A stretch of 64,000 bases of DNA from Synechococcus sp. CB0101 (GTDB taxonomy: Bacteria; Cyanobacteriota; Cyanobacteriia; PCC-6307; Cyanobiaceae). This document shows, one piece after another, positions 34,911 through 48,934 of this stretch (positions are counted from its first letter, which is position 1; each line of letters starts with the position of its first letter). Below the pieces are notes generated by a model. The model saw nothing but the letters and a program-made list of their open reading frames with translations. It did not search any database and had not been told where the DNA came from. The stretch covers positions 1,829,860 through 1,893,859 of the forward strand of contig NZ_CP039373.1 in NCBI RefSeq assembly GCF_000179235.2, in the 5' to 3' direction. The position numbers and the translations under genes were made by a program.

Positions 34911-35237
34911 GTGCCTCCATCCACCCCCGCGGCGACTCAACCACATCCGCGAGCTCTCCCCCGCAGCTTCTTCTGCCGCCTCGCTGAGCTGGTGGCGCCT
35001 GAACTGATTGGCTGCCTGCTGGTGAAGCGCAAAGCACATGGCGACTTGCTGTGGGGCGTGATTGTGGAAACGGAGGCGTATTCCCAGGAGGAGCCTGCTT
35101 GCCACGGTTATCGCCGCCGCACCCCCAGCAACGAAACGCTCTTTGGTGAGCCAGGGCGCTTTTACGTCTATGTGAGCTATGGCATCCACCACTGCGTGAA
35201 GCGAGCCCGTCTCTCAAAGACCCCAGGCTGGGCTTGA
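34911..35237 (+). pseudogene. Left remnant of mpg (3-methyladenine DNA glycosylase, native 5' half)
   Basis: GTG 34911 begins a frame of 108 residues that matches the intact mpg at 48386-48934 through [39 protein letters not shown] and HCV, then runs into unrelated residues ([12 protein letters not shown]) and stops. The switch falls at position 35200. The C-terminal half of the enzyme is missing here and is found 13.4 kb away. This is the original 5' end of the host gene, with its own start and presumably promoter, cut off by integration of the element on its right. Confidence 0.9.
35187..35200 (+). repeat. Attachment repeat 1 (left end of E1, in mpg)
   Basis: CACCACTGCGTGAA is the last sequence shared by all three mpg copies before they diverge (also at 42345 and 48551). 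A longer 26-nt identical block lies 35 bp upstream (35127-35152; 42285-42310; 48491-48516). The true crossover point lies in or upstream of the repeat. Confidence 0.8.
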
Positions 35238-35296
35238 GATTTCAGCGGCTGCCCCAGGTCTCCCAGCCAACTCCCAAGCCACCGCCCCAAAAAACT

Positions 35297-35387
35297 CCCA
35301 GATTTTTTCTCTCAGAGACCCCCACGGCTACGAAGGGCTACAAGCCGAGTTGACTGGCTTGGCTTGGTCAGTGGTGCAGCCGTAGCC
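35297..35387 (+). repeat. E1 left-end block with paired GGCTAC repeats (probable integrase arm sites)
   Basis: CCCAGATTTTTTCTC (35297-35311) is followed by GGCTAC at 35326 and 35336, one helical turn apart, and an inverted copy GTAGCC at 35382. The same block sits at nearly the same distance from the attachment repeat in E2 (42453-42498). Arm-type sites for the integrase are the likely meaning; this is inference. Confidence 0.6.
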
Positions 35388-36024
35388 CTGGTGTCAGCAC
35401 CTGCACAGCACCTTGCTCAAGCCGCCCTCGCTTCGCAACAACAACGGCAGCCTGCAGGTGCGGGTGCGGATTGATGGAAAGGATGCCTTCATCAATCGCC
35501 TGGGTCGCTGGAGTGACCCTGTAGCGGTGGCACGAGCACAAGCCATCAGTGCCCAGATATGGAGCGACTACCAGCAGGGCACCTTTGACCGCTCCCTGAT
35601 GGCGTATCAGCCCCTCATCAACGGCAAGGAGGTGGGGCTGCTGGAAGCCGTGAAGGCACGGGCAGAGGAGAAGCGCCAGGCTGCCGCTATCCACGCCTAC
35701 AGGGTGCTGAAGCGCTATGGGAAGCCCATCCGCAACAGGAGTGACGCAGAGGCGTTTCTGGCGTGGTTACGGGAAGAGGGGCTGAGCGACTGCACCATCG
35801 CTGGTTTGATGACCCACTATCGCCAGTGCTCAGGCGGCAACCGCCACCTGTTTTCCCACAAGCTGAAGTGGCAGCGGCGGTCAGTGCAGAGCGATGTGCT
35901 GAGCGTGGAAGAAATCCAGGTGGTGCTGAGTGACCTGGAGACCAACGAGCCTTGGTATTACCCCCTGTTTTTGCTCTGGCTCAGCACCGGTGACTGCCAG
36001 GAAAGATGACGCCTCTGCTGCTGT

Positions 36025-37149
36025 TCAAGCAGTCATCGTCAACGTAGCCGGTGTGGATTCAATTTCTGTAGATGGTGGGTTGATCCAAACCACTTCTGGC
36101 TGACGCCAACATCGGATTGCTCGTGACCAGCGCCGTGGATTGAGCTGGCGGGCTTTTTCGTACACGACAGCGCGATGCCGACAGATCTCCACGGCCTGTC
36201 CGCCGTGACGTTGCTGAGGCGTCACGAACTTGATGCCGCTGTGGCGGTGCCGATGGTTGTACCAGTCCACAAACGACGCCACCCACTGGCAGGCCTCGTC
36301 CTTGCTGGCAAATGGCCGTCTCGGGTAATCAGGCCGGTACTTCGCAGTGCGGAACAGCGATTCGGAGTAGGGGTTGTCGTTGCTGACGCGCGGACGCGAG
36401 AACGACCTGAGCACGCCCAGCTCCTCCAGCCTGCTTTCCAGCGTGGCTGCACGCATGGCATTGCCGTTGTCGGCGTGGAGGATCAACGGCTGCTTGCGTC
36501 CCCGACTGATTCGCTCGCGCAGGCACGCCCTGATCACCAGATCGGCTGCAATGACTGGGTCTTCTCGCTCAGCGACATCCCACGCCACGACCTTGCGGCT
36601 CCAGACGTCGATCACCAGATAGAGGTACAGCCACACACCTCGCACGGTGGTGGGCAGGTAGGTGATGTCCCAGCTCCAAACCTCGTTTGGACCAGCAGCC
36701 CTGAGCCGTGGCACTGGGCGCGGTTCCTGTGGTGGCCGAGCTCGGCCCCGCCGGTGAACCTGACCGTGAGCATGGAGAACTCGGTAAAAGCTGCGCTCTG
36801 AGCCGATATACAACCCGCGATCCGCCAGCACCGGCACGATCTGCCCAGGCGGCAGCGCCGCAAATTCCGGCTCATTGCACGTGAGCAGGATCCGTTGGCG
36901 TTCCTCCTCACTGAGGCGGTGAGTCACATGCCGGAAGCTGCCCTTGCGACGATCGACACCATCACCGTCTCCAGCAAACTGACGGCGCCAGCGCTGCAAC
37001 GTCGACAGGCCCACGCCCAGAAGCAGAGCCAGCTCACGAGCTCGGGCACCGTTGATGATGCCCTCGTCGAGGATCTCCAGGGCCTTCCGGCGATCGTCAG
37101 GCGACGTCAATCGTCCCCGTCCTCTCCCCAGAAGGCCTGAATCTTTTTT
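36025..37149 (-). CDS. IS3-family transposase OrfB (DDE integrase part)
   Basis: Reading from the frameshift site, the frame gives a helix-turn-helix (GARARELALLLGVGLSTLQR), an HTH/linker region, and an rve integrase core with DDE residues in VWSWDITYLP, LILHADNGNAMRA and NPYSESLFRTAKYRP, followed by FVDWYNHRHRHSGIKFVTPQ. It is made as a fusion with OrfA by -1 frameshifting. No in-frame start of its own is convincing. It appears intact. Confidence 0.85.
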   Translation of the reverse strand, partial: KKDSGLLGRGRGRLTSPDDRRKALEILDEGIINGARARELALLLGVGLSTLQRWRRQFAGDGDGVDRRKGSFRHVTHRLSEEERQRILLTCNEPEFAALPPGQIVPVLADRGLYIGSERSFYRVLHAHGQVHRRGRARPPQEPRPVPRLRAAGPNEVWSWDITYLPTTVRGVWLYLYLVIDVWSRKVVAWDVAEREDPVIAADLVIRACLRERISRGRKQPLILHADNGNAMRAATLESRLEELGVLRSFSRPRVSNDNPYSESLFRTAKYRPDYPRRPFASKDEACQWVASFVDWYNHRHRHSGIKFVTPQQRHGGQAVEICRHRAVVYEKARQLNPRRWSRAIRCWRQPEVVWINPPSTEIESTPATLTMTA

Positions 37150-37613
37150 GAGGCGATCAGCAGCGCAGCCGCCTCCGCCAGAGCTTTCTCCTTGCGGCGC
37201 AGCTCCTGTTTGAGCCGCTTGATCTCCTTTTGATCCTGCGCGCGGAGCCGTTCCAGCTCCTTCTGCTCTTTCAAGGTGAGCACTGGTTTCTCGTTGGCAT
37301 CCTGGGATGCCTGACGCCACCGCTCCACCTGCTCCGGATAGAGACCCCGCTCTCGGCAGTAGGCACTGAGCTCGGTGGCGTTGAGCCCAGCAGTCTCGAG
37401 CACCACCGTGAATTTGTCTGTGGCACTCCAGCCCTCAGGATCCTTCTCGGATGCCGGCACCACCTCTCCCTGCAACCGCCAGGCCTTCCTCCAGTTGTAG
37501 AGGGTGACCACGTGAATGCCCAGCTCTGCTGAGATCTGGGCCACGCTCTGCCGCATGGGCGGACTCATCCGCTTTCTCGCGTCAGCTTTGACGGCCTCGC
37601 TGTAGCGACGCAT
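37107..37613 (-). CDS. IS3-family transposase OrfA
   Basis: 168 residues: an N-terminal helix-turn-helix (SVAQISAELGIHVVTLYNWR), a second one (LNATELSAYCRERGLYPEQV), and a leucine-zipper-like coiled coil (EQKELERLRAQDQKEIKRLK) ending just after the slippery site (IASKKIQAFWGEDGDD). OrfA binds the IS ends and is fused to OrfB by frameshifting. Confidence 0.85.
   Translation of the reverse strand: MRRYSEAVKADARKRMSPPMRQSVAQISAELGIHVVTLYNWRKAWRLQGEVVPASEKDPEGWSATDKFTVVLETAGLNATELSAYCRERGLYPEQVERWRQASQDANEKPVLTLKEQKELERLRAQDQKEIKRLKQELRRKEKALAEAAALLIASKKIQAFWGEDGDD
37143..37149 (-). other. Programmed -1 frameshift heptamer A AAA AAG
   Basis: On the minus strand the OrfA codons TCA AAA AAG contain A-AAA-AAG. 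Slipping back one base continues as AAA AAA GAT in the OrfB frame (LKKDSGLLGRG). This is the classic IS3-family slippery sequence joining OrfA and OrfB. Confidence 0.8.
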
Positions 37614-38177
37614 AGATCTGCTCCATCAAGCCCCCTGCTTGAAAAATGGTCGGGATGGAGAGGCGTCAACTTTGCTGGCAGAGGGGGCACTGGGCTGCGA
37701 AATGCCGAAATCAGGGGGCTGACCTGGGATTGCATCCGCTTGGAGCAGGGAGAGGTGCTGGTGATGAAGAGCCTGCGGCGTGATGGGTATTCCAGTGGGA
37801 GGGTTGAGTGGGCACCCACCAAGACGGGCAAGGAGCGAGTGGTGCCGCTGATGCCCCAGGTGCTGGAGACCTTGAAAGAGCACCAGCAGCAGATGGATCA
37901 GCTGAGCATCTACGACCCGTATGGGCTGGTATTCGTCACGCCCACCAGCCACAGCAACGTCTATGACCACTTGTTGGGTCGTGTTTGGCATCGCAGCCTG
38001 CAGCGGTGTGGATTGAAGCCGAGGAGGCTGTATGCCCAGCGTCATAGTTTTCTGTCTCATGCTCTTGCGATGGGCAATTCGCCAGCTGATTTGGCAGCGG
38101 CGGCAGGTCACTCCACCAAGATGCTCCTGGATACCTATGCCAAACCAACAGGCAGATTGAAGATGCCGACTTGGTAA

Positions 38178-38750
38178 TCACCACAACTCACCAGTGCGGT
38201 AACGACGTTGCTGCTCACGCTGCTTCATCAGATGGTTCAGGCGCGACTGGTGACCTGCCTGCTGCTGCGGTGAGCGCATCGGCGGCAACTTGGTGACCCT
38301 GGGGGCATGAGGCGTTGAGGGCGGTGCTGAAGGCATTACAGGGCGCTGAACTTGTTGGTGAAATCGCTCAGGTCGAAACTCAGGTGGATTGCCCAGAACC
38401 CCTCGCTTCTTCAGCAGGGTCTCCAGTGATGGGCAGTTGGTCTGGAAACCAGTGGTTCCATGCTTCTCTCGCAGGCGCACGTATTCAAAGTGCACCAGCG
38501 GGAACTGTGCTTCCAGAAACTTCTCAAACGATTGATGCTCACCACACTTGTGGCACTTGAAGTTCCAAGCGTTGCCAACGGGATACAGGTAACCCTTGGC
38601 GTCAGATGGCGCGAGAGTCTTCCCTTTGCTGTTCTTGCCGCTGTATTGACAATAAGGGCACTGGAAGCGAAGAGCATTCGCTTTGCGTTCAAAAAGAGGT
38701 AATGCAGTTGAGATGTAGTCAATAAAGGTCTCTTCGATGGCTTTGGTCAT
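38178..38750 (-). CDS. Zinc-ribbon protein like the N-terminal domain of T4-type primase (gp61), E1 copy
   Basis: 190 residues. Residues about 27-75 hold a four-Cys zinc ribbon, RFQCPYCQ...NFKCHKCG, with AKGYLYPVGNAW between and SFEKFLEAQFPLVHFEYVRL after it. This order closely resembles the start of phage T4 gp61 primase (FRCPVCG...ARGWYYG...CYNC...YLKEF.P.LYREYIF). There is no TOPRIM or primase catalytic domain; the rest is Pro/Gln-rich and ends with KLPPMRSPQQQAGHQSRLNH, a tail conserved in the E2 paralogue. It is convergent with the integrase (stops 1 bp apart). A role in element replication or in interfering with phage replication is inference. Confidence 0.75.
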   Translation of the reverse strand: MTKAIEETFIDYISTALPLFERKANALRFQCPYCQYSGKNSKGKTLAPSDAKGYLYPVGNAWNFKCHKCGEHQSFEKFLEAQFPLVHFEYVRLREKHGTTGFQTNCPSLETLLKKRGVLGNPPEFRPERFHQQVQRPVMPSAPPSTPHAPRVTKLPPMRSPQQQAGHQSRLNHLMKQREQQRRYRTGELW

Positions 38751-38778
38751 TTGTCATATTGCTTGTCTAGATGTCGAT

Positions 38779-38807
38779 ATTATATCACAGATTTTCTCAT
38801 GTGTAAA
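38779..38807 (-). promoter_or_regulatory. Sigma-70 promoter of the E1 gp61-like gene
   Basis: Minus strand: -35 TTTACA (38802-38807), 17-bp spacer, -10 TATAAT (38779-38784). The same boxes and spacing occur in E2 (44382-44410), although surrounding bases differ. Confidence 0.75.
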
Positions 38808-38824
38808 TCTTGAAAAGCATAAAT

Positions 38825-38846
38825 AACCTTGTAGAGGTTTGATCAA
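38825..38846 (+). promoter_or_regulatory. Operator-like repeat 1 of E1
   Basis: Begins AACCTTGTAGAGGTTT and ends GATCAA. It matches the repeat at 38915 in 19 of 22 positions and contains an AACCT/AGGTT dyad. It lies 18 bp beyond the minus-strand -35 box, the same place as its E2 counterpart at 44428. Confidence 0.65.
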
Positions 38847-38884
38847 GATGGTGACTCGATAAAATCCAGATAAACACAGGATGC

Positions 38885-38913
38885 TTGACAAACTATAAAG
38901 AAGCCTGTATAAT
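38885..38913 (+). promoter_or_regulatory. Perfect consensus sigma-70 promoter of the E1 small-gene operon
   Basis: Plus strand TTGACA (38885-38890), 17-bp spacer, TATAAT (38908-38913). It would give a leader of about 375 nt before the gene at 39295. E2 has the identical boxes and spacing at 44478-44506. Confidence 0.8.
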
Positions 38914-38914
38914 G

Positions 38915-38936
38915 AACTTTGTAGTGGTTTCATCAA
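38915..38936 (+). promoter_or_regulatory. Operator-like repeat 2 of E1
   Basis: Begins AACTTTGTAGTGGTTT and ends CATCAA; starts 1 bp after the plus-strand -10 box, so a bound protein would cover the start point. It is a near copy of the repeat at 38825, 90 bp away. Confidence 0.65.
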
Positions 38937-39294
38937 ATGATCTTGAGTTGATTCATTGATGATTCCCAATGACCACTCGAAAGAACCCCAAAAGACTCAA
39001 GACAAAATCAAACAGATTCTATTCGCAACTTGATTCAAGACACACGCAAAAGAAACTCAACTGAAACTTGATTCAAGATTCATCAGCAATCAATAAGATC
39101 TCTTGATTTAATCCTCAAGTATTTATCCTTGATTCATTCAAGAGAAATCCTGGTGGAGTCATGAGTCAAGATTTAAATCTATTATTAAATAACATCCAGA
39201 AGTTCATCTTAAATGATGACCACAAGAAAATAGATGATCCTCGCCAAGGATGAATCATGAATAAATAGATTCAGGTTCTATTCTAAATGTATAG
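38937..39294 (+). other. AT-rich leader/intergenic region of E1 with palindromes
   Basis: No gene is supported here. It holds two copies of the palindrome CTTGATTCAAG (39029-39039, 39067-39077), a third expanded form (39128-39142), and TCCTCAAGTATTTATCC (39112-39128), which is repeated exactly in E2 at 44611-44627. It may be a structured leader, operator cluster or origin. Confidence 0.5.
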
Positions 39295-39477
39295 ATGAAG
39301 TCTATTCCAAGAGTAAAGCAAATCAGTTTCAAAGAAAAAGAGCATCCATTTCTCCTCCAGCAAATGGAGGATCTGATGGATCTATACAAAATGGATATCA
39401 GTGGTCTCTACAAGACCCTGCTGCGAGAAAAGCATCAAGAGGTCTTCGGGTCTCCATCCAGCAGGTGCATCAGATGA
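39295..39477 (+). CDS. Small element protein, QISFK family, E1 copy
   Basis: 60 residues. KQISFKEKEHPFLLQQMEDL and MDLYKMDISGLYKTLLREKH are shared with the 57-residue E2 protein at 44786 (about half identical). The second half reads as a helix-turn-helix or ribbon-helix-helix-like pair of helices, so DNA binding is plausible but unproven. Its stop overlaps the next gene's ATG (ATGA). No strong ribosome-binding site is seen. Confidence 0.7.
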   Translation: MKSIPRVKQISFKEKEHPFLLQQMEDLMDLYKMDISGLYKTLLREKHQEVFGSPSSRCIR

Positions 39478-39635
39478 CCACCATCAGGATTCATCTGCAT
39501 CCTGTCGAGGCAGAGATGCTCAAGGAGGTTCAGAAGGGCAACAGGCGCTTCCGTGATCTGGAGACCCTCCTGCTGGGTCTGATTCGTGAGGAATACGCCA
39601 AAACGCCTGCTGGTCGCAACAAGGGGGCGTCATGA
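39474..39635 (+). CDS. Small ribbon-helix-helix-like protein, E1 copy
   Basis: 53 residues, MTTIRIHLHPVEAEMLKEVQ then GNRRFRDLETLLLGLIREEY. An initial beta strand followed by two helices is the ribbon-helix-helix plan of small repressors. E2 has a 44-residue counterpart at 44956 in the same position. It overlaps both neighbours by ATGA, so the three E1 genes form a coupled operon. It is the best candidate for the protein that binds the operator repeats; that is inference. Confidence 0.7.
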   Translation: MTTIRIHLHPVEAEMLKEVQKGNRRFRDLETLLLGLIREEYAKTPAGRNKGAS

Positions 39636-40135
39636 CTCACCGTGAACTGATGGTGGAGGAGTTCCTCAAGAAGCAGGCAGCGGCAAAGCGGGTGCTGGTG
39701 GCAATCAAGAAGGCGCGGAAGCGCGAGACCCTGCCCAGTGCCCTCCAGATCGCTGATGCCCCTCTGGCGATCGAGGAAGAACACTCCTTCTACATCTTCC
39801 GCACTGACACCAATGCTGTGCTCGCCAGGGGCATTCAGGGGTTTGAGGCGGCGAAGATCAGAGCAAACGAACTGAGGAAATCCCACGGGTTGAAGTGGGA
39901 TGAGGTGAAGTTCAAAGCAGAGCGTGGGAAGCAGTCGGGTGCCGCTGGTTCATCTGGTGGATCAACGGCAACAGCACCCAAGAAGCAGTTCGGGGTCAGT
40001 CGTGATGGCAAGACCTTCACCAATGCTCGCGGGGAGACAAACAGGATTGATTACGCCAGACGCTACAACCCATCAAAAGGGCGAAGATTCAGGGGATATA
40101 CAGACTCTCAGGGCAACTATCACGATATTGACTGA
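39632..40135 (+). CDS. Unknown element protein
   Basis: 167 residues. A charged N-terminal helix region (VEEFLKKQAAAKRVLVAIKK), a middle domain with EEHSFYIFRTDTNAVLARG, a Gly/Ser/Ala linker (about 115-130), and a basic, aromatic C-terminal segment (FGVSRDGKTFTNARGETNRI, RRYNPSKGRRFRGYTD). I recognise no family. The basic tail could bind nucleic acid. It is the third gene of the ATGA-coupled operon; E2 has no counterpart, so it is cargo or an E1-specific accessory. Confidence 0.65.
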   Translation: MTHRELMVEEFLKKQAAAKRVLVAIKKARKRETLPSALQIADAPLAIEEEHSFYIFRTDTNAVLARGIQGFEAAKIRANELRKSHGLKWDEVKFKAERGKQSGAAGSSGGSTATAPKKQFGVSRDGKTFTNARGETNRIDYARRYNPSKGRRFRGYTDSQGNYHDID

Positions 40136-40193
40136 GGCGAGTGTGGTCGCTCACTCATCGTGAGCGCCCGAAGGAGTAGATATATTCGCACTG

Positions 40194-40481
40194 ATGGGGG
40201 CATCAGAATCTTGGCATAAGTTTGCTATAAAGAACAAGTCGACAGAGGCACTGTTGCTACTGAGGTCTTGCGCGAGACCAGAACGAGACGGGCAGATCCC
40301 TGTAGTGATCGAGTGGCATTATTCAGATCCACCGCAGCGCCTTGTGTCTCAACAGATTTACCCGCAGGGGGTTGACAGAGGAGGGCGACCATCGTATACT
40401 TACCTCACAAGCGACAACGACTCCGGCAACCAAGCACAGGGAGAATCCGTTGTCTTGTTAGACGAAAAACCGTCGAAATAA
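40194..40481 (+). CDS. Unknown element protein
   Basis: 95 residues starting MGASESWHKFAIKNKSTEAL, with IPVVIEWHYSDPPQRLVSQQ and DRGGRPSYTYLTSDNDSGNQ. No family is recognised. An AAGGAG lies about 18 bp upstream, rather far. The low GC and position inside E1 mark it as element cargo. Confidence 0.55.
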   Translation: MGASESWHKFAIKNKSTEALLLLRSCARPERDGQIPVVIEWHYSDPPQRLVSQQIYPQGVDRGGRPSYTYLTSDNDSGNQAQGESVVLLDEKPSK

Positions 40482-40534
40482 CCCTTTACCGGCTCAGGTT
40501 TAGAGCGCATACACACTTACGCCCTGGAGGCACT

Positions 40535-40759
40535 ATGACTACATCTGACAATCTTATTAAGTGGGAATACCAACTTACCTATCACGTTCCAATCTCCCTT
40601 GATGATAATGGAAACATCGAGTGGGCTGAGCAGAGCGACCACTGCGTGATTACTCTTCCTGCCAGCATTGAGAATCCCTGCGAGTTTCTCGGCAAGTCTG
40701 GTTATGATAACCAGGTAGACATCATCGATTTTACCGATTTTAGCAAAGTCGACGCCTAG
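40535..40759 (+). CDS. Unknown element protein, possibly frameshifted
   Basis: 74 residues with a good ribosome-binding site (GGAGG about 6 nt before ATG 40535). Content: LIKWEYQLTYHVPISLDDNG and an acidic end VDIIDFTDFSKVDA. The stop at 40757 falls inside another open frame that reads on as DINKEVKEFLSEVV, so the gene and the next frame may be one protein broken by a -1 frameshift, natural or by mutation. Confidence 0.6.
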   Translation: MTTSDNLIKWEYQLTYHVPISLDDNGNIEWAEQSDHCVITLPASIENPCEFLGKSGYDNQVDIIDFTDFSKVDA

Positions 40760-41004
40760 ACATTAACAAAGAAGTCAAAGAATTTCTCTCGGAAGTAGTA
40801 AATACTCTTCTCCCTTGCACCATTGATGAAGAGGTGATCACGATTAACAATCGCGGTCACCTCAAGATCAAAGGCAAGTATCCGTCTAGTGAACTCTCAT
40901 TCGCTATGGGAACCACTCCCAGCGACTATCGGTGGAAGTATCGTGCCAAGACGGCGTTAAAGCGTTTTATCTACACAGAAATCCTCAGCAGTTCAACTGC
41001 TTAA
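40744..41004 (+). CDS. Open frame without a start codon, likely continuation of the preceding gene
   Basis: From 40744 the frame is open to TAA 41004 and reads DINKEVKEFLSEVVNTLLPC, TINNRGHLKIKGKYPSSELS and TTPSDYRWKYRAKTALKRFI, which looks like real protein. No ATG, GTG or TTG stands at its beginning; the first ATG is late (40905). It overlaps the end of the 74-residue gene in the -1 frame. The end converges on the gene at 41001. Confidence 0.45.
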   Translation, partial: QSRRLDINKEVKEFLSEVVNTLLPCTIDEEVITINNRGHLKIKGKYPSSELSFAMGTTPSDYRWKYRAKTALKRFIYTEILSSSTA

Positions 41005-41168
41005 CCGATCAGATCCATTAAGCGCCCATCGCTATCCACCAGGCGATGGCGCTTCCCAGTGGATTCCGCGCGACGCTGAGCAACCCGATAGGCATCCGCT
41101 TGGTTCTGCTTGGTCTGGTAGTGATGCCAACGACCGAACTGGTCTTGCCATTCAATATTGATGGTCAT
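41001..41168 (-). CDS. Small unknown protein
   Basis: ATG 41168 gives 55 residues: MTINIEWQDQFGRWHHYQTK, DAYRVAQRRAESTGKRHRLV and DSDGRLMDLIG. This FGRW.HYQTK...DAYR.A..RA..TGKRHRLVD pattern is one I associate with small hypothetical proteins of picocyanobacteria and their phages, without known function. Its stop overlaps the convergent frame ending at 41004. Confidence 0.6.
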   Translation of the reverse strand: MTINIEWQDQFGRWHHYQTKQNQADAYRVAQRRAESTGKRHRLVDSDGRLMDLIG

Positions 41169-41227
41169 CGATATCCTGTAATCAATATTGTGGGAACTCA
41201 AAGATGACCATTGTTTTGCACCTCACT

Positions 41228-41968
41228 CTATGTGAGGTTGGTTGCAAATGGATTGTTATTCCATCCACTCGCTATTAATGCACCAAACCCATTCTGATCC
41301 ACAACGGAACGATCGCCGCCATCTGAACTGGAATAGTCTGCAACTTTCGCAAGTGCGGAGACGGGGTTGAGGGAGCTCTGGAATCTCCTTCCCAGAACTT
41401 GACCAAGAGAGCGTAATCCTGAGAATGACACAGGCGAACTGGCGCTCCAAATCGAAATTTCTTCAACTGGAACTAGAGATGTTTGGCTCGATCCGCCGCT
41501 GATCACAGTATTGTATTGATTCTCGTATTGTGCTGAAGCAACTTTGCTGATCTGACCAGCGACAGTGCCGTTTTTGTAGGTAAAAGACCCAGTGATCACA
41601 TCCCTGATAAGGGGTTGCTCAGATATGTTGTCAGAATCATTTCCGCCAAGTGTGAGAACTATTGTTGAAGGCGAGAATTCATACTCCCACTGCAAGGAGT
41701 ATGGCATTGACAGATTCTGTGGAAGATTCCCCGTCTCAGCGCCGTATATGTCGGCAATGGTTCGATTCCCAGGATTGTATGGGTCAGATCCAGTTATTCC
41801 ATAGACCGTATCAGTCTTATTGATCCATTGAAATGCCTTTGGGAAGTCGTATCCATCCGCATCATGGAAGAGAATATTCCCTTCCTGTGAATAGAGTGCC
41901 CCACTGGCTACCTTGCTGCCATTGTTCTTGGTAGGTCTCTTGGCGCCACCTCTTTTCTTTTTGCTCAT
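41228..41968 (-). CDS. Unknown element cargo protein
   Basis: 246 residues: a basic start (MSKKKRGGAKRPTKNNGSKV), then a beta-rich domain with GNILFHDADGYDFPKAFQWI, DSDNISEQPLIRDVITGSFT and a C-terminal SSDGGDRSVVDQNGFGALIA. No signal peptide, zinc site or enzyme motif is visible. Low GC and isolation on the minus strand at the end of E1 suggest cargo. I do not recognise it. Confidence 0.6.
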   Translation of the reverse strand: MSKKKRGGAKRPTKNNGSKVASGALYSQEGNILFHDADGYDFPKAFQWINKTDTVYGITGSDPYNPGNRTIADIYGAETGNLPQNLSMPYSLQWEYEFSPSTIVLTLGGNDSDNISEQPLIRDVITGSFTYKNGTVAGQISKVASAQYENQYNTVISGGSSQTSLVPVEEISIWSASSPVSFSGLRSLGQVLGRRFQSSLNPVSALAKVADYSSSDGGDRSVVDQNGFGALIASGWNNNPFATNLT

Positions 41969-42050: not shown

Positions 42051-42368
42051 TCTCCACCCACCCCCGCCCAAGCCACTCCCATAGCCACCACGACCACCCA
42101 AGACTTCCCAGCTCTCCCCCGCAGCTTCTTCTGCCGCCCCGCCGAGCAGGTTGCCCCTGACCTCATCGGCTGCCTGTTGGTCAAGCGCCAGCCCTCAGGC
42201 GAGCTGCTCTGGGGCGTGATTGTGGAAACGGAGGCGTATTCGCAGGAGGAGCCCGCCTGCCACGGCTATCGCCGCCGCACCCCCAGCAACGAAACGCTCT
42301 TTGGTGAGCCAGGGCGTTTTTATGTCTATGTGAGCTATGGCATTCACCACTGCGTGAAGGCGGCCTGA
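42051..42368 (+). pseudogene. Middle remnant of mpg 5' half (right end of E1)
   Basis: From the stop at 42048 the frame is open and encodes [40 protein letters not shown] and on to [12 protein letters not shown], then stops after three unrelated residues. It matches the 5' half of the intact mpg, most closely over its first 110 bp. No ATG, GTG or TTG opens it; an ATA stands where an ATG would be expected in both this copy and the next. It marks the E1/E2 junction. Confidence 0.85.
42345..42358 (+). repeat. Attachment repeat 2 (E1/E2 junction)
   Basis: CACCACTGCGTGAA, identical to the repeats at 35187 and 48551. Copies 2 and 3 share 20 identical bases ending here. Repeat-to-repeat distances are 7158 bp and 6206 bp. 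Confidence 0.8.
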
Positions 42369-42452
42369 CTCCAAGGGACATCTGCCGCGGCCTGATTTCT
42401 GAGCGACTCGGCGGGGTCAAAAGCCAATGCTCAAGCCGCTTCCCAAGAATTT

Positions 42453-42498
42453 CCCAGATTTTTTCTCCCAGGTGACGCCCAGGGCTACATAGGGCTAC
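42453..42498 (+). repeat. E2 left-end block with paired GGCTAC repeats
   Basis: CCCAGATTTTTTCTC (42453-42467) then GGCTAC at 42483 and 42493, one helical turn apart. It begins 94 bp after the attachment repeat, against 96 bp in E1. Likely integrase arm sites, by analogy. Confidence 0.6.
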
Positions 42499-42571
42499 GA
42501 AACGGGTTAAGGGGCTTGGCCGCGGCAATGGGTCGGCCATAAGCCAGAGGTCTGAGCGGAGCACCAGACCC

Positions 42572-43648
42572 ATGAGGAAAGCACCATCGCTAAGGAGCAA
42601 CAACGGGGCGCTGCAGGTCCGTGTGCGCCTTGATGGCCGTGATGTCTTTATCAACCGTCTGGGGCGCTGGGATGACCCTGTGGCAGTGGCGAGAGCACAG
42701 GCGATTAGCGCCCAGATATGGAGCGACTACCAGGAGGGGACGCTGGACCGCTCCCTGCTGCGATACACCCCGCTGGTGAAGGGTCAGCAGGTGGGACTGC
42801 TGGAGGCGATGCAGGCACTGGCCGACAGCACCCATAACGCCCGCTGCATCCATGCCCTGAGGGTGGTCAAGGGATACGGCAAGCCGCTCAGAAACGGCAG
42901 TGATGTTGAGGACTTTGTGCGGTGGATGCAGGCCAAGCCGCTGGCCAACCGCACCATTGCTGGGATTCTGCAGGTGTGCCGCAACGCCAACCCCAGCAAC
43001 CGCCAACTATTCACCTACCGCCTGCCCCTCAAGCAGAGGTCCGTGCAAAGCGACGTGCTGAGCATTGAAGAGATTGGCCTGGTGCTCAGGGACATGAAGG
43101 AGCACGAGAGCTGGTTTTACCCACTCTTCCTGCTGTGGATGAGCACGGGGCTACGGAATGCCGAGATTCGCGGCCTGACGTGGGATTGCATCCGCTGGAG
43201 CGACAAGGAGCTGCTGGTCTGTAAGTCCCTGAGACGGGATGGGTATTCCAGCGGCAAGGTGGTCTGGGCAACGACCAAGACAGGCAAGGAGCGTGTCGTG
43301 CCCCTGAGTGATGCCGTGATGGAGACGCTGCTGGACCACCAATGCCAGATGCAGGAGCAGGGCTTGTATCAGCGAGAGGGTCTGGTCTTCTTGTCACCTG
43401 ACACCTACACCAACGTCTACGACCACCTGCTGGGTCGTGTGTGGCATCGGTCCTTGAAGCGGTGCGGCCTGAAACCACGGCGGCTGTATGCCCAACGTCA
43501 CTCCTTCCTCAGTCACGCTTTGGCGATGGGGAATTCACCAGCAGACCTGGCGCAGATTGCTGGTCACTCCACTGAGATGCTGCTGAAGACCTATGCCAAA
43601 CCAACAGGCCGCGTGAAGTTGCCGACTTGGCCTGAAATGGAAACGTGA
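42572..43648 (+). CDS. Tyrosine recombinase/integrase of E2
   Basis: 358 residues. An N-terminal arm-binding domain (APSLRSNNGALQVRVRLDGR, DDPVAVARAQAISAQIWSDY) is followed by a SAM-like core-binding domain and a catalytic domain with Arg in GLRNAEIRGLTWDCIRW, Lys in TKTGKERVVPL, Arg in LYAQRHSFLSHALA, GHST and the nucleophile Tyr in LLKTYAKPTGR. It should integrate and excise the element at mpg, and may act on E1 in trans. It starts at ATG 42572 after the left-end repeats. Confidence 0.92.
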   Translation: MRKAPSLRSNNGALQVRVRLDGRDVFINRLGRWDDPVAVARAQAISAQIWSDYQEGTLDRSLLRYTPLVKGQQVGLLEAMQALADSTHNARCIHALRVVKGYGKPLRNGSDVEDFVRWMQAKPLANRTIAGILQVCRNANPSNRQLFTYRLPLKQRSVQSDVLSIEEIGLVLRDMKEHESWFYPLFLLWMSTGLRNAEIRGLTWDCIRWSDKELLVCKSLRRDGYSSGKVVWATTKTGKERVVPLSDAVMETLLDHQCQMQEQGLYQREGLVFLSPDTYTNVYDHLLGRVWHRSLKRCGLKPRRLYAQRHSFLSHALAMGNSPADLAQIAGHSTEMLLKTYAKPTGRVKLPTWPEMET

Positions 43649-43727
43649 AAAAGAATGCTTACTTCTAATCTATAAAAGTGGGTGCATCCTATCTCAATGC
43701 CTCATCATCACATCACTGGCCAGGGTC

Positions 43728-44354
43728 TCAGTCCTGCAGATATGGAGCAGCAGGGTCCCTCTGTCTGAGTTTCTGATGCTGCTTGACCTTGTGCGCCAGT
43801 CGAGCAGAGCACCCTGCCTGCTGCTGTGGGGTCAGGCGAGGGAGTTTTGTGATGGCTGGTTGAATTGGTCCTGAAATCACTTGATTCTGGCTGGTTGCAG
43901 CACTATCTCCAGCAGCCTTGCAATCAGTTTTCTCAATTCCACTACCCGACTCCACCAACTCGCCAGCAAATGCTGCTGTGACCCTTCCAGAGACCCTCTG
44001 AGCGGCATTGGAGAGGGTGGGTGCATTGGTGCCCTTCCCTGTCAGTCCTAACCCATCACGCTCTGCCACATACTCCAGGAAGACTGATGGGAAATGGTCT
44101 TCTAAAAAGTTGTGAAACTGCTTGCCAGTCCCGCAGCGGTGACACTTGAAGTTTAGGGCATTACCGTTGCTGTAGAAGAATCCCTTGCATCCACTTGGAG
44201 TCACCGTGCGACCTCTATGGTTTTTGCTGCTCAACTGGCAATAAGGGCACTGGAAACGGTAGGCATTGAGTTGCCTGCTGAAGTGCGGCAGCAACCCACT
44301 GACTTGATTTAAATACTTTTCTTCTATGCTTGAAATGCTCAGGCTTGATGTCAT
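43728..44354 (-). CDS. Zinc-ribbon protein like the N-terminal domain of T4-type primase (gp61), E2 copy
   Basis: ATG 44354 gives 208 residues. SISSIEEKYLNQVSGLLPHF leads to the four-Cys ribbon RFQCPYCQ...NFKCHRCG with CKGFFYSNGNAL between and FHNFLEDHFPSVFLEYVAER after. The C-terminal KLPRLTPQQQAGCSARLAHK matches the E1 paralogue while the middle differs. As in E1 it lacks any primase catalytic domain and faces the integrase, 79 bp apart. The likely origin is phage replication machinery; its present role is unknown. Confidence 0.75.
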   Translation of the reverse strand: MTSSLSISSIEEKYLNQVSGLLPHFSRQLNAYRFQCPYCQLSSKNHRGRTVTPSGCKGFFYSNGNALNFKCHRCGTGKQFHNFLEDHFPSVFLEYVAERDGLGLTGKGTNAPTLSNAAQRVSGRVTAAFAGELVESGSGIEKTDCKAAGDSAATSQNQVISGPIQPAITKLPRLTPQQQAGCSARLAHKVKQHQKLRQRDPAAPYLQD

Positions 44355-44381
44355 GGCGATATCTGCTTTCTTTCTTTGAGG

Positions 44382-44410
44382 ATTATAGCATGAATTCTCC
44401 AATGTGTAAA
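44382..44410 (-). promoter_or_regulatory. Sigma-70 promoter of the E2 gp61-like gene
   Basis: Minus strand TTTACA (44405-44410), 17-bp spacer, TATAAT (44382-44387), matching E1 in boxes and spacing. The start point would be about 20 nt before ATG 44354. Confidence 0.75.
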
Positions 44411-44427
44411 TCCTCAAATGCATAAAT

Positions 44428-44449
44428 AACCTTGTATAAGGTTGACGAA
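44428..44449 (+). promoter_or_regulatory. Operator-like repeat 1 of E2
   Basis: AACCTT-GTAT-AAGGTT is a perfect 6-4-6 inverted repeat followed by GACGAA. It sits 18 bp beyond the minus-strand -35 box, exactly as in E1. Confidence 0.65.
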
Positions 44450-44477
44450 AGTAGTGGCCACTGGTTTCTGTTGGGAC

Positions 44478-44506
44478 TTGACAGAAACCCTAAAAACATA
44501 TATAAT
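44478..44506 (+). promoter_or_regulatory. Perfect consensus sigma-70 promoter of the E2 small-gene operon
   Basis: Plus strand TTGACA (44478-44483), 17-bp spacer, TATAAT (44501-44506). The leader to the gene at 44786 would be about 270 nt. Confidence 0.8.
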
Positions 44507-44529
44507 AACCTTGTTGGTGCTTCAATCAA
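44507..44529 (+). promoter_or_regulatory. Operator-like repeat 2 of E2
   Basis: Begins AACCTTGTTGGTGCTT and ends CAATCAA; directly follows the plus-strand -10 box, as in E1. It is 79 bp from repeat 1. Confidence 0.55.
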
Positions 44530-44785
44530 GTATCTGTTGATTCTTCTGGTTGATGCCCTGCTGATATTCAATAGAGATTCAAAAAGAAACTCGATAGATG
44601 CTGGCTTGAGTCCTCAAGTATTTATCCCTAAAAACTTCTGGTCTTTATCCATCAAATTTCAAAAGAATACCCAAAGAAATATCAATCCGCGATTCATTTA
44701 AGACCGCATTGAATCAGAGGCCAGAATTCACCCAGAAAACTCATGATAAATAGTTAAAAATCAAATCAAGAAATCACCAGGAAAT
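44530..44785 (+). other. AT-rich leader of the E2 small-gene operon
   Basis: No gene is supported. It contains the inverted repeat CTTGAGTCCTCAAG (44605-44618) overlapping the 17-nt block TCCTCAAGTATTTATCC (44611-44627) that is identical in E1 (39112-39128). Confidence 0.5.
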
Positions 44786-44959
44786 ATGTATTGCAGAAGC
44801 AAGGTCCAGCAAATTAGTTTTAAGTGGAGAGAGTATCCAGTATTGATGTCACAGCAGAAAAAGTTGATGGAATACTACGGAATGGATATGAGCGGACTCT
44901 ATAAGCATCTTCTCAGAGAAAAGCACTCTCAACTCTTCTCGCCCTCAGTCGCCCCATGA
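44786..44959 (+). CDS. Small element protein, QISFK family, E2 copy
   Basis: 57 residues, MYCRSKVQQISFKWREYPVL, MSQQKKLMEYYGMDMSGLYK and HLLREKHSQLFSPSVAP. It aligns with the E1 protein at 39295 over nearly its whole length, which supports both as real genes. AGGA lies 7 nt before the ATG. The stop overlaps the next ATG (ATGA). Confidence 0.72.
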   Translation: MYCRSKVQQISFKWREYPVLMSQQKKLMEYYGMDMSGLYKHLLREKHSQLFSPSVAP

Positions 44960-45090
44960 AGACCTACCGCATTCAACTGACTGCAGAAGAGCAGAAGAAA
45001 CTGGAGCAGGTCCTCAAGCGCCTCAGGCAGCGTGATGTGCAGTCATTTTTCTTGGAGGCGTTGCATGAGCAGTGGTTGAAGTTGGGCTAA
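44956..45090 (+). CDS. Small ribbon-helix-helix-like protein, E2 copy
   Basis: 44 residues: MKTYRIQLTAEEQKKLEQVL then RQRDVQSFFLEALHEQWLKL. A starting beta strand and two helices fit a ribbon-helix-helix repressor. It is coupled by ATGA to the previous gene and corresponds in position and plan to the E1 gene at 39474. Confidence 0.7.
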   Translation: MKTYRIQLTAEEQKKLEQVLKRLRQRDVQSFFLEALHEQWLKLG

Positions 45091-45142
45091 AGGCAGTAAT
45101 AAGCCTCGTCACATCATCTATTTCTTACAGCTTCTTGATAGC

Positions 45143-45171
45143 TTGTCAAACCATTGATAATCTGGTAAGAT
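45143..45171 (+). promoter_or_regulatory. Putative promoter of the gene at 45194
   Basis: TTGTCA (45143-45148), 17-bp spacer, TAAGAT (45166-45171), 23 bp before the ATG. Each box has one or two departures from consensus. Confidence 0.5.
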
Positions 45172-45193
45172 ATTGACTCTTGAATCTTGCGAT

Positions 45194-45874
45194 ATGGACC
45201 AATATGTAATTGATGACTCTTATTTGGATGAGCATTCTTATGGAGCAAATGAAGGTGATTGCATCCTGCTTCTTGTTGTTGCGACGCTTTTGAATTCTGG
45301 CGACCCTGAATTGGAGAATATTCGGGAGAGCTTGGGCGATTCCGCCCCCGACAGATTTTTATCTCTTGTAGAAGAGTCAAGCCTCCTTGTTGGCCAAAGA
45401 CTCTCTAGGCTTCTTCATTCTCTGGCCAGGCCTTTTAATGACGACGAGTGTGAGTATGGAGGCGAATATTATGAGGGTAGCATTGGGTATCCACTTCGTT
45501 TTGTCGCGCCTTCGCAATCATCTGAATGCTCGGGTGTCGTTGGTTTCCAATGGGATGATGGAGATGAGTTGCAAAAAGGACTGGGATTTCTTGATAAGAA
45601 GTCGGGCGACTTGAAAGTGGCGATTTTCATTAGTCTTGAGCGATGTGATGGCAATTGTGGCGGCTATGAGCTCTATTTGAGTCATGTCGAGGATTATTTG
45701 TGCCAGCCTTTGGTCCAGATAGCTGCATATAGCGATGCTTCGGCTGCTTTGAAAATCGCAGAGTATTCTAGTAGTAAGCGCATAAGAAATATCAATGGCA
45801 AGGAGGCAAGCTCTTTTTTGTCTGACTACTCTATTTCTTGTCGCGAAGATAAGGCCATGAGTCAGGCTTTCTGA
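45194..45874 (+). CDS. Unknown acidic cargo protein of E2
   Basis: ATG 45194 gives 226 residues (a TTG at 45173 is an alternative). The protein is acidic, starting MDQYVIDDSYLDEHSYGANE, with a hydrophobic CILLLVVATLLNSG, FNDDECEYGGEYYEGSIGYP, and CDGNCGGYELYLSHVEDYLC. No known domain is recognised. Low GC and its place between the switch genes and the methyltransferase mark it as cargo, possibly linked to defence by context only. Confidence 0.65.
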   Translation: MDQYVIDDSYLDEHSYGANEGDCILLLVVATLLNSGDPELENIRESLGDSAPDRFLSLVEESSLLVGQRLSRLLHSLARPFNDDECEYGGEYYEGSIGYPLRFVAPSQSSECSGVVGFQWDDGDELQKGLGFLDKKSGDLKVAIFISLERCDGNCGGYELYLSHVEDYLCQPLVQIAAYSDASAALKIAEYSSSKRIRNINGKEASSFLSDYSISCREDKAMSQAF

Positions 45875-46210
45875 TTTTCCGTTTCGTTTTCTCTTCCTGA
45901 TTCTTCTCCCCGATGACCTCGTTGTTGGGTAGCTAGATGACTCTTTTCTGTCCAGAGGTGCATGTGGAGATTCGTCGTGGGTCCTTCAGTAGGTCGGGAG
46001 AGGCCATCTGGTGCCCCTTGGAGGCCTTGCCGCATGTGCAGGTCCTGGGGGCAGGTCAAAGAGCCGCAGACCTTGAATCCTTTGGATTAGTGAGTGTAGC
46101 CATGAATACTGCATATGCTGAATTACAACTCAATCTCCTGGCGGTGTTTCATTGGGCTAATTCTCTTCCATGAGGTTTCGGCAGTTTGCCTTGGTGAGTA
46201 AGATGGGCAA
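45875..46210 (+). other. Intergenic region upstream of the methyltransferase
   Basis: A 336-bp stretch without a convincing gene. A 78-residue open frame (45937-46173, MTLFCPEVHVEIRRGSFSRS) and an antisense 65-residue frame exist, but neither has a recognisable domain or good ribosome-binding site. It probably holds the methyltransferase promoter. Confidence 0.4.
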
Positions 46211-47296
46211 ATGGCACATTTAACTTGCATCGAATCCTTCTCAGGGCCTGGCGGCATGTCACTTGGCCTTGAGAGGGCAGGATTTCAGCTTCTTTATGCT
46301 TTTGATAATGATGCACCTTCTGTTGTCACTCATAATCTGAATCTCAATGGTAAATGCTTTCAGCTAGATGCTCGCCAGGTTGATTCTGTTGAATTGCTGG
46401 CTCAATGTGGCTTATCTGTTGGTGATTTAGATTTATTCAGCGGGGGGCCACCTTGCCAGGGTTTTTCAAAGCAGAGGCGAGGAGCTCATCTAGGAGATGA
46501 CCGAAATCTTCTTGTGCTCGAATATCTGCGCCTGGTCCAAGAGTTAAAACCAAAGTCCTTTCTTTTTGAGAATGTTGCTATATTTGGCCAAAAGAGGGGT
46601 CTGGCCTTTCTGGCTGCAATGAAGGAGGCTCTTTCTGCATACAGACTGTATCCAAACTTCTTTAACTCTGCAGACTTTGGTTTAGCGCAAACAAGGCACA
46701 GATTTATGCTTGTTGGCATTAGGCGAGATATAGGCTTTCGATTTTTGTCCCCGCCTCCCACCGTCCAGAAATGGGCAACGGTCAGGGATGTTATTGGCGA
46801 CATGCCGCCCCCGCCTTCGGACTGCTCCGAGCATCCTGACTTCTTCAATCATGCCCAAACTAAGATAACTAAACGCAATATCGAAAGATTTTCGTATGTC
46901 CCCCAGGGCGGAGGATGGCAAGACATACCTTGGGATTTAAGGCTGGATTGTCACAAGACGGCTGACATTAAAAGTGGAGGTTGGCCAGATGTTTATGGCC
47001 GCTTATCTTGGGACGGACAGTGCCCAACCATTACTGGTGGATTTGATAGTTTTACTAGAGGGCGTTATGGTCATCCTGAGCAGAATCGTGCGCTTACCCC
47101 AAGGGAGGCCGCTCGACTGCAGGGATTTCCAGACAACTTCATTCTTACTGGGAATCGTCATCAGGTAAGGCATCAAATTGGCAATGTTGTCCCCCCGCCT
47201 CTCGCCGAGGCTGTCGGGAAGCAAATCGCAGATTGTCTAAACGGCAAATCGCAACCTGTTATGCCTGATTTTGAGCAGCTTCCGCTTGCTGCTTAA
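46211..47296 (+). CDS. DNA (cytosine-5-)-methyltransferase
   Basis: 361 residues with the C5 methylase motifs in order: I ESFSGPGGMSLGLERAG, IV GGPPCQGFSKQRR (catalytic Cys), VI FLFENV, VIII FGLAQTRHRFMLVG, a target-recognition region (about 200-290), IX REAARLQGFPDNF and X HQIGNVVPPPLAEAVG. It protects host DNA from the convergent restriction enzyme. GC is lower than the host. The recognition sequence cannot be read from the protein. Confidence 0.93.
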   Translation: MAHLTCIESFSGPGGMSLGLERAGFQLLYAFDNDAPSVVTHNLNLNGKCFQLDARQVDSVELLAQCGLSVGDLDLFSGGPPCQGFSKQRRGAHLGDDRNLLVLEYLRLVQELKPKSFLFENVAIFGQKRGLAFLAAMKEALSAYRLYPNFFNSADFGLAQTRHRFMLVGIRRDIGFRFLSPPPTVQKWATVRDVIGDMPPPPSDCSEHPDFFNHAQTKITKRNIERFSYVPQGGGWQDIPWDLRLDCHKTADIKSGGWPDVYGRLSWDGQCPTITGGFDSFTRGRYGHPEQNRALTPREAARLQGFPDNFILTGNRHQVRHQIGNVVPPPLAEAVGKQIADCLNGKSQPVMPDFEQLPLAA

Positions 47297-48146
47297 ACCG
47301 TTGTAGGTGCTCCTCTAGCCCGTCGAGACTCAATAATGATATCCCCCCTTTTGTGACCCTTCCTAGCCCAGATGGTATGTCTCCGTAAAATGCATGTGTA
47401 ACATTTTGAGATAGGCACATTTGATAGAGAATCCACTGGTCTGGTGTGCATACTTCGCGGGCATTGTCTTGGCCAGAGCGCTGCATTTCGCTTAGTGCTA
47501 CTAGGCAGCTTGTGTATTTTTGCGGCTCGAGCACATCGAGAATTCTTTGTTGGGTAAATACTTGCGATATTCTTTCTCTTGTCGTTATTTTTGCTGCTAG
47601 CACTAGTCCAGTTGTCCTCGCCTGGTTGGTGATTGAGATATCGGTCGAGACTTTGATGCCAGCGCTCGTTGGGACGAATGACCCGTATGCAAATTCTGGG
47701 CCCAGCTTTTCGCCGATGAATACTCTTATGACTCTCTCGAAGAATGTGCCAGGTGTCTTCCTGCTTGATGGCGAGTATATATCAATAAAGATTGCGGCGG
47801 AGGTTGCGAGCGAGTAGATTGACGCGTTTGCTGACTCAGCGCTCTCCAGCCCAGATTTATTTTGTGGCCATGCGGCTGGTGATTGGTGCCTTGGGTCCCA
47901 AATCTCAATATTGATAGGCCTGCTCGTTTCGCCTCGGTTGTCTATTAGCAGATACTTCTTATTGCTGTATCTGCATTCTTTGAATGTTGCGCCCTCGATG
48001 GCCTTGCTGTGGCACTCGTTTGCTGTCCTCGTTATCGCGGAGAGCGCTTCCTGGTGATTTGCCTCTTTGATGTGGGTGTCTATGGCTTTAATTGCCGATT
48101 GGAGGTCCAAGTGCGATTGCTCGTCTTCATGCTTTGTAGCTCTCAA
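47259..48146 (-). CDS. Putative type II restriction endonuclease
   Basis: 295 residues, convergent with the C5 methyltransferase and overlapping its 3' end by 38 bp. TPGTFFERVIRVFIGEKLG and KVSTDISITN...LVLAAKITTRERISQVFTQQ fit a PD-(D/E)XK nuclease core (Asp in TDIS, Lys in AAK) as seen in several type II enzymes. The call depends on this pattern and on the pairing with a methylase. Confidence 0.75.
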   Translation of the reverse strand: MRATKHEDEQSHLDLQSAIKAIDTHIKEANHQEALSAITRTANECHSKAIEGATFKECRYSNKKYLLIDNRGETSRPINIEIWDPRHQSPAAWPQNKSGLESAESANASIYSLATSAAIFIDIYSPSSRKTPGTFFERVIRVFIGEKLGPEFAYGSFVPTSAGIKVSTDISITNQARTTGLVLAAKITTRERISQVFTQQRILDVLEPQKYTSCLVALSEMQRSGQDNAREVCTPDQWILYQMCLSQNVTHAFYGDIPSGLGRVTKGGISLLSLDGLEEHLQRFKQQAEAAQNQA

Positions 48147-48385
48147 TCGTGTCTCGGGCCATGGTCTCTCCAGCGGTTGCGGCCTGCCTAACGATTTCTT
48201 GTTGGATTGCTGCCCTGGTCCGTTTCCCTATGCCAATACCGCATAAAACCGCTCTTTCTCAATAGCCTCCGCCCAACCTCGCCCAAGCCACTCCCATAGC
48301 CATAGAAGTCTTCCCAGCTCTCCCCCGCAGCTTCTTCTGCCGCCCCGCCGAGCAGGTTGCCCCTGACCTCATTGGCTGCCTTCTG

Positions 48386-48934
48386 GTGAAACGCCAACCC
48401 GATGGCGCGTTGCTGTGGGGCGTGATTGTGGAAACAGAGGCGTATTCGCAGGAGGAGCCTGCTTGCCACGGCTACCGCCGCCGCTCACCAAGCAACGAAA
48501 CGCTCTTTGGTGAGCCTGGGCGTTTCTATGTGTATGTGAGCTACGGCATTCACCACTGCGTGAATGTGGTGACGCACCGGGCCGAGTGGGCCAATGGTGT
48601 GTTGCTGCGTGCCGTGGCGCTGCCGGATGAGCCCGAGCGGGTGGCTGCCGGACCGGCTTTGTTGGCGCGGCGATTTGCCATCGATCGCAGCCACGACAGG
48701 CGCCCTGTGGATCCGGCCGAAGGGCTGTGGCTGGCGCCGAAACCTGCAGCTCTCGCCGCCTGGGGGCCTGACAGCCTGGTGCAGACCACCCGCATCGGCA
48801 TCACGCAGGGGCAAGACCTGCCGTGGCGTTGGTATCTGCGGTCAAGCCGCAGCGTGAGCAAACGGGCCCGGGGCGATCGCTCACCGGCGCCGGCTGACGC
48901 TCTGCGCGTGGCCGCGCTGCCGATGGGCTTCTAG
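48386..48934 (+). CDS. mpg: 3-methyladenine DNA glycosylase, reconstituted at the right end of E2
   Basis: AAG/MPG family. The catalytic Glu lies in [20 protein letters not shown], then [20 protein letters not shown] and the DNA-binding C-terminal part ([20 protein letters not shown]). The enzyme excises alkylated purines. From 48386 (GTG) it has 182 residues, but coding similarity begins earlier, near 48300 ([20 protein letters not shown]), without any ATG, GTG or TTG after the stop at 48263. The N-terminal part is element-derived; the part after 48564 is host. Expression and start therefore depend on the element, and function is uncertain. Confidence 0.8.
48551..48564 (+). repeat. Attachment repeat 3 (right end of E2, inside mpg)
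   Basis: CACCACTGCGTGAA inside the reconstituted mpg frame, followed by the native sequence TGTGGTGACG. Recombination with repeat 1 would remove both elements and restore the native gene. Confidence 0.8.

Follow-up and report, generated by a model that had tools for sequence, protein, structure and literature searches.

How does a DNA-repair gene come to have its 5ʹ half three times in a row, when only the last copy runs on into its 3ʹ half? The question is raised by mpg of Synechococcus sp. CB0101, in a stretch of 64,000 nucleotides (contig NZ_CP039373.1, positions 1,829,860 to 1,893,859; the window, in whose numbering positions are given below) that is part of a 2.79-Mb single-contig genome. 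A first-pass annotation, made from the letters alone, had proposed two tandem integrative elements in mpg, and this proposal is supported by the junctions, by empty sites, by the origins of the copies and by occupied sites elsewhere. We put at about 0.93 the probability that the two intervals are related site-specific integrative elements, E1 and E2 (Table 1), inserted successively at one attachment site (attB) inside mpg.

The mpg array and its junctions

The three mpg 5ʹ halves, of ~300 bp each, lie in direct orientation with starts at 34952, 42110 and 48316, that is, with a spacing of 7158 and 6206 bp. Aligned without gaps over ~300 bp, the other two copies were 84% and 77% identical to copy 1, and the coding half of the copies showed 87-91% identity. 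By direct reading, all three share the core CACCACTGCGTGAA (for positions see Table 1), and immediately 3ʹ of it the sequence is different in each (GCGAGCC, GGCGGCC and TGTGGTG), the divergence being complete. On the Pfam Mpg profile of 181 positions copy 1 covers only 2-76 and copy 3 the full length. A tyrosine integrase gene (int) follows ~200 bp past the core in each interval, the first one split by an insertion sequence (IS). The arrangement described by the first-pass annotation was thus recovered by repeat search and reading. An assembly artefact, which it had named as a possible refutation, was rejected because the copies are 9-23% diverged and the genome is in a single contig.

Upstream of copy 1 lies sequence corresponding to that ahead of native mpg in empty-site genomes (L128-L130; 83-92% identity over 40-56 nt). 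The upstream sequences of copies 2 and 3, by contrast, resemble one another as well as element right ends in other genera. From these different origins it follows that copy 1 is the displaced half of the host gene, and that copies 2 and 3 arrived with E1 and E2.

We then compared the locus with those of relatives, represented by one genome per species. Both the uninterrupted mpg-pyrB locus and the elements at the same codon, for which the first-pass annotation had advised a search, were found. An unbroken mpg, flanked by the creatininase/DUF6679 genes on one side and by pyrB on the other, is present in four congeneric genomes (L127-L130), and further empty mpg-pyrB sites were seen in L109, L111 and L106. 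At the codon used in CB0101, an insertion with an integrase beside the stranded 5ʹ half is present in G171 (Synechococcus sp. 8F6), G126, G260, G141, G265, G207, G249, G277 and G580, and the same crossover lies at contig ends in G177, G239, G203 and G247; occupied sites span several genera. The left junction (attL) signature, CACCACTGCGTSAA followed directly by GCGAGCC, was present in 14 of 400 genomes of the cyanobacterial family, some of them being two-mismatch matches or relics such as G081, against 1 for a reversed control pattern. In five genomes (G071, G295, G143, G205, G169) mpg carries an element-type leader and the upstream gap is enlarged to 1.9-9.9 kb, compared with 0.2-1.8 kb in G045, G246, G123, G222 and G101; no integrase match was found in the enlarged gaps, and these loci are likely decayed insertions.

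Three similar copies in direct orientation could also be left by a tandem gene-family duplication through unequal recombination, with unrelated genes in between. However, in many genera every truncated copy stops at the same base and is followed by a left end with a related integrase, the sequences ahead of the copies have two different sources, and the same integrase family has produced this pattern at uvrA of CB0101 as well. Empty alleles exist, the leftmost copy keeps its native upstream region and the attL junction is common to several genera, so a duplication lacking an empty-site allele, the other refutation named at the outset, is scarcely credible.

In the mechanism that we favour, the tyrosine integrase would recombine the core CACCACTGCGTGAA of an element circle with the identical sequence in mpg. 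Beside the core, the circle would carry a diverged mpg 5ʹ half that has a leader and a start of its own, so that a circle of the order element 5ʹ half, core, int would give rise to native 5ʹ half, core, int, and at the far end element 5ʹ half, core, native 3ʹ half. The element half would thereby come to lie in frame before the host 3ʹ half, and the host 5ʹ half would be stranded beside the integrase. A second element would have used one of the two new core copies, which would produce the tandem array. Since an mpg 5ʹ region precedes int in the same direction both in the integrated state and, presumably, in the circle, int might be driven by an mpg promoter.

Several points weigh against this explanation. 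Excision and circle formation were inferred and not observed, and E1, whose integrase is broken, could move only with help from E2. In 8F6 an E2-like integrase is paired with a right end closer to that of E1, from which it follows that ends have been reshuffled. Orphan mpg 5ʹ halves distant from mpg occur in G193, G115, G092, G045, G071, G295, G169 and G144, and simple insertion into mpg does not account for them. The G253 copy extends beyond the crossover (to profile position 145).

The surroundings of some orphan halves were also recorded. Those of G193 (L103, L104, L105) lie amid many short open reading frames (ORFs) with a Nif11-like leader and an EELEGVAGG end, which we take to be prochlorosin-like precursors, plus a 1062-aa ORF that is presumably LanM-sized. 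Orphan halves or relics in G115 (L107, L108) and G081 (L218) are found in islands with repeated near-identical genes for outer-membrane-like proteins, and that of G045 (L114:6430-7230) is at most ~200 bp from a permuted tmRNA prediction.

The restored mpg gene and its start

In-frame stops were present in 3 of 10 displaced 5ʹ halves and in 0 of 19 native or restored copies, and the median ratio of nonsynonymous to synonymous differences (pN/pS) between restored and native copies was 0.19, equal to that among native ones. Judging from these comparisons, the element-supplied gene appears to be the one kept. In keeping with insertion into a once whole gene, the displaced 5ʹ half joined to the 3ʹ half gives an open mpg frame.

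According to the first-pass annotation, both promoter and start are replaced together with the 5ʹ half. The frame and the N-terminus are indeed restored by the element, but a standard start is not supplied and a consensus scan detected no promoter in the leader upstream of mpg. In the two element-borne 5ʹ halves no ATG, GTG or TTG stands ahead of the conserved LPRSFF, and an in-frame stop precedes it; a normal start codon supplied by the element was therefore rejected, and some other codon has to serve as the start. Each of the 17 fused copies that have the element-type leader shows an in-frame ATA at one position, even though the spacer from ATA to LPxxFF differs among them by whole codons (7-11 codon-scale spacers). 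At this position L158 has exactly an ATG, and some orphan halves have GTA or ACA.

We also surveyed 90 mpg 5ʹ regions of family genomes (L004-L033 and L135-L194). No NTG was present within 30 codons before the conserved FF in 46 of them, and the next NTG lay at least 7 codons inside the domain; in 44 of these 46 an ATA, ATC or ATT lies nearby, usually at codon -9 or -7. The restored mpg thus very probably starts at ATA (AUA), and AUA, AUU and AUC starts look widespread in picocyanobacterial mpg, in carriers as well as in element-free relatives. After this survey of native genes the idea that element-borne mpg has no start at all was dropped. An example is the order stop-AAA-ATA-GAA seen in low-GC, Prochlorococcus-like genomes.

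A known precedent makes the opposite outcome worth considering. SpyCI of Streptococcus pyogenes resides in the 5ʹ end of mutL, which is silent until excision (PMC4129442), and integration could likewise inactivate mpg, leaving a silent gene with no usable start. The missing NTG, the preceding stop and the undetected consensus promoter would all fit such a switch. Against it, the fused copies are free of stops and under native-level constraint while the displaced ones decay, the ATA holds its place despite the varying spacer, many native mpg genes also have AUA, AUU or AUC at a fixed place and no NTG, and the related L158 has its ATG exactly there. We consider silencing improbable. Both systems are small chromosomal islands at the 5ʹ end of a DNA-repair gene, but the mpg elements carry a constrained replacement 5ʹ half.

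The probable start lies within one of the repeats that mark the element ends (Table 1). A left-end motif of the GGCTACGAAnGGCTA type was found in 13 of 21 ends and a right-end motif, AAGCCAC[TG]CCC[AG]TAGCC, in 8 of 21; about none were expected from shuffles and none occurred in 10 native upstream regions. The left ends also have AAGCCA repeats, and one AAGCCA is present in native upstream regions. These AGCCA-type end repeats are putative arm sites of the integrase.

The integrase family and its targets

Homologous integrases were found in 44 of 300 genomes of the cyanobacterial family at E 1e-3, weak matches and fragments counted, and at a stricter cut-off across the phylum only two distant matches lay outside it; by these searches the integrase family appears nearly confined to the family of its host. 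Four protein genes supply the fragment that precedes nearly every integrase N-terminus: the mpg 5ʹ half, the uvrA 3ʹ end, the 3ʹ part of a phospholipase-D-like (PLD) gene, or the 3ʹ end of a DUF2301 gene. All full-length members of the integrase family adjoin one of these four. The piece left behind adjoins int in all classes, and the mpg class carries a 5ʹ half, not a 3ʹ one, because it is the only class whose int has the same orientation as the target gene.

The three target classes sampled in the integrase tree each formed one group, with strong support for PLD and uvrA and weak support for mpg (72/66). The target changes on the tree amount to the minimum of two, a value reached by none of 200 shuffles, which indicates that integrase clade matches target gene. 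In the same genome uvrA is likewise a tandem array, with three 3ʹ ends in direct repeat at a spacing of 6779 and 5275. Its two elements (L095:5087-17460; G000:C1:1588086-1600459) have nearly identical integrases. At the DUF2301 gene site, also in this genome (L096:6278-12682; G000:C1:2183277-2189681), the end repeats are 38 bp long and 82% identical, and the integrase is broken by a transposase gene.

Comparison with Synechococcus sp. 8F6, which belongs to another genus, showed transfer of mpg elements between genera: the E2 integrase was 96% identical in amino acids (88% in DNA over 1.7 kb), and the flanking proteins were 79% (pyrB), 86% (creatininase) and 77% (DUF6679) identical. The E1 body resembles a PLD-class element in G165 (74-81% DNA identity over ~2.8 kb) whereas the N-terminal part of its integrase and its left end resemble mpg-class elements, and modules have therefore been exchanged between classes.

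The use of protein genes bears on whether these elements are tycheposons. A picocyanobacterial host, a tyrosine recombinase and variable cargo would be in keeping with this, but tycheposons use tRNA genes (Hackl et al. 2023, as cited in PMC10872708), and the integrase loci examined have neither a tRNA nor a tmRNA gene, their targets being protein genes. We regard this assignment as very unlikely. Another picocyanobacterial tyrosine integrase family is similar in its restriction-modification cargo and target-specific clades but differs in location, which is at tRNA-Phe or tRNA-Cys (PMC10187409).

Gene content of the elements and related systems

E1 and E2 have a common gene order: integrase, leftward zinc ribbon, divergent promoters, 37-aa ORF, small ORF and cargo. 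Over much of their length the G+C content is 42-62%, compared with ~65% in the surroundings.

Table 1. Features of the mpg array in the window.
Feature	Position	Strand	Basis
Displaced native mpg 5ʹ half and native upstream region (attL side), core 35187-35200	34911-35200	+	Repeat search, upstream match
Integrative element E1, 7158 bp, core to end of mpg copy 2	35201-42358	+	Repeats, junctions
E1 integrase, N-terminal part (interrupted)	35413-35990	+	87% aa identity to L098 integrase; alignment stops at 35990
IS within E1 integrase, two transposase ORFs, HTH_Tnp_1 and rve	35991-37686	-	Domain matches
E1 integrase, C-terminal catalytic part	37687-38177	+	PF00589
E1 stand-alone primase-type zinc-ribbon protein, 190 aa	38178-38750	-	phrog_47 DNA primase, E 2e-11
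E1 divergent promoter pair, leftward TTTACA-17-TATAAT, rightward TTGACA-17-TATAAT (12/12)	38779-38913	.	Consensus scan
E1 37-aa ORF, ATGA overlap with next gene	39364-39477	+	62% identity to E2-counterpart region in 8F6; 89% to L132
E1 small ribbon-helix-helix-like protein, candidate excision factor or regulator	39474-39635	+	Element comparison; no Pfam match
E1 167-aa ORF, common to uvrA-class and PLD-class elements	39632-40135	+	81% identity to L132; 45% to L121, L131
E1 cargo ORFs	40194-40481, 40535-40759, 41228-41968	+, +, -	ORF list
E1 right end: motif AAGCCACTCCCATAGCCA 42070-42087, in-frame ATA 42081-42083, mpg copy 2, core 42345-42358	42070-42358	+	
Integrative element E2, 6206 bp	42359-48564	+	Repeats, junctions
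E2 tyrosine integrase, intact, 358 aa	42572-43648	+	PF00589, E 5e-15; phrog_1 integrase, E 2e-35
E2 primase-type zinc-ribbon protein, start probably internal, downstream of promoter	43728-44423	-	Profile matches
E2 divergent promoter pair, rightward TTGACA-17-TATAAT (12/12)	44382-44506	.	Consensus scan
E2 37-aa ORF (44846-44959) and small ORF (44956-45091), ATGA overlap	44846-45091	+	
E2 cargo ORF, no assigned function	45173-45874	+	ORF list
E2 cargo, type II DNA cytosine methyltransferase	46211-47296	+	PF00145, E 3e-55; PADLOC MTase_II, E 3e-96
E2 cargo, type II restriction endonuclease	47259-48146	-	PADLOC REase_II, E 4e-21
E2 right end: motif AAGCCACTCCCATAGCCA 48285-48302, in-frame ATA 48296-48298, mpg copy 3, core 48551-48564	48285-48564	+	
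Restored chimeric mpg, element 5ʹ half and native 3ʹ half, probable AUA start	48296-48934	+	PF02245, E 5e-49, positions 1-180

The catalytic residues R195, K236, R309, H332 and Y341 of the E2 integrase are invariant across the integrase family. The two alignments of the E1 integrase overlap by 7 bases in L098, consistent with a target duplication of the IS. The zinc-ribbon family profile matches the T4 primase (8dvf, E 9e-11), and the element protein is by this match related to the N-terminal part of that primase. Some mpg-class elements have, after int, a 180-aa Rep-like protein (L098:8426-8980, L099:8713-9255, L219:11200-11553), whose similarity to replication initiation proteins is weak (phrog_3584, E 0.001; PF23343 below cut-off). 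Proteins of 48-53 aa like the small one of E1 occur in mpg-, PLD- and uvrA-class elements; the ribbon-helix-helix fold is our candidate reading of a sequence that Pfam does not recognise.

The consensus scan gave 9 promoter-like sites in total compared with 8.8 in shuffles, and the perfect 12/12 promoters recur at the equivalent place in E1, E2 and their relatives. Palindromes like AACCTTGTAGAGGTT lie at 38825 and 38915, beside the E1 promoter pair. Perfect sigma-70 promoters paired back to back with another strong promoter and accompanied by AACCTTGTAxAGGTT palindromes were also seen in L095, L097, L121, L131 and L132. Pfam gave mostly no match for the cargo and small ORFs of the two elements, and the E1 cargo ORFs (40194-41968) matched no family in Pfam, PHROGs or PADLOC profile searches. 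Neither conjugation genes nor packaging, capsid or terminase genes were found in E1 or E2 by Pfam or PHROGs, and no RNA families were found at 34000-50000.

Given this content, E1 and E2 might be satellites of T4-like cyanophages that depend on a helper phage for induction and packaging and use mpg just as a docking site. A size of 5-7 kb, the presence of an integrase, palindromes at strong divergent promoters, and a T4-primase-like zinc ribbon that stands alone in elements of different target classes would suit such a life cycle. It is harder to reconcile with the lack of Pfam or PHROGs matches to packaging, capsid and terminase genes, with an integrase family that was not found in IMG/VR viral contigs and has only <30% identity in phage genomes, and with the weakly Rep-like gene that takes the place of the zinc ribbon in some mpg elements. 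We therefore consider the satellite explanation possible but doubtful. Equally tentative is a broader picture, in which the elements would form a picocyanobacteria-specific family, small and possibly phage-satellite, whose integrases have diversified to use four or more protein genes, among them the two DNA-repair genes mpg and uvrA. The mpg 5ʹ half would then do double duty, with an AUA start overlapping an arm site and with a position upstream of int in the circle that ties movement to mpg expression.

Elements of the uvrA, PLD and DUF2301 classes, unlike those of the mpg class, restore a 3ʹ end, as phage 21 and e14 do in icd of E. coli. Insertion in the 5ʹ part of a protein gene, with a new leader and N-terminus supplied by the element, is known from the SXT/R391 integrative and conjugative elements in prfC and from dusA-specific islands such as IMEVchUSA3 (PMC8409611). 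The mpg elements resemble these in using a tyrosine integrase and in keeping the reading frame, but they supply ~85 mpg codons, are 3-7 kb in size, have no conjugation or mobilisation genes that we could find, live in picocyanobacteria and probably provide an AUA start. Integrase relatives with different repair-gene targets also have a parallel, since SpyCI-related islands reside at the uvrA promoter (PMC4129442). A search of an open-access library turned up no paper that describes integration into mpg in cyanobacteria, so the novelty claimed by the first-pass annotation stands for the target. It does not extend to the replacement of a 5ʹ end as such, which is already known; what is new is therefore the use of mpg, together with the integrase family and the range of four protein genes that it occupies.

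The match between integrase clades and targets provides a natural series for the study of target change. Restriction-modification cargo in very abundant phototrophs travels on small elements docked in protein genes, which island searches centred on tRNA genes would miss. At mpg, the element swaps the leader and the first ~85 codons of a DNA-repair gene between genera, and this footprint outlasts the integrase.

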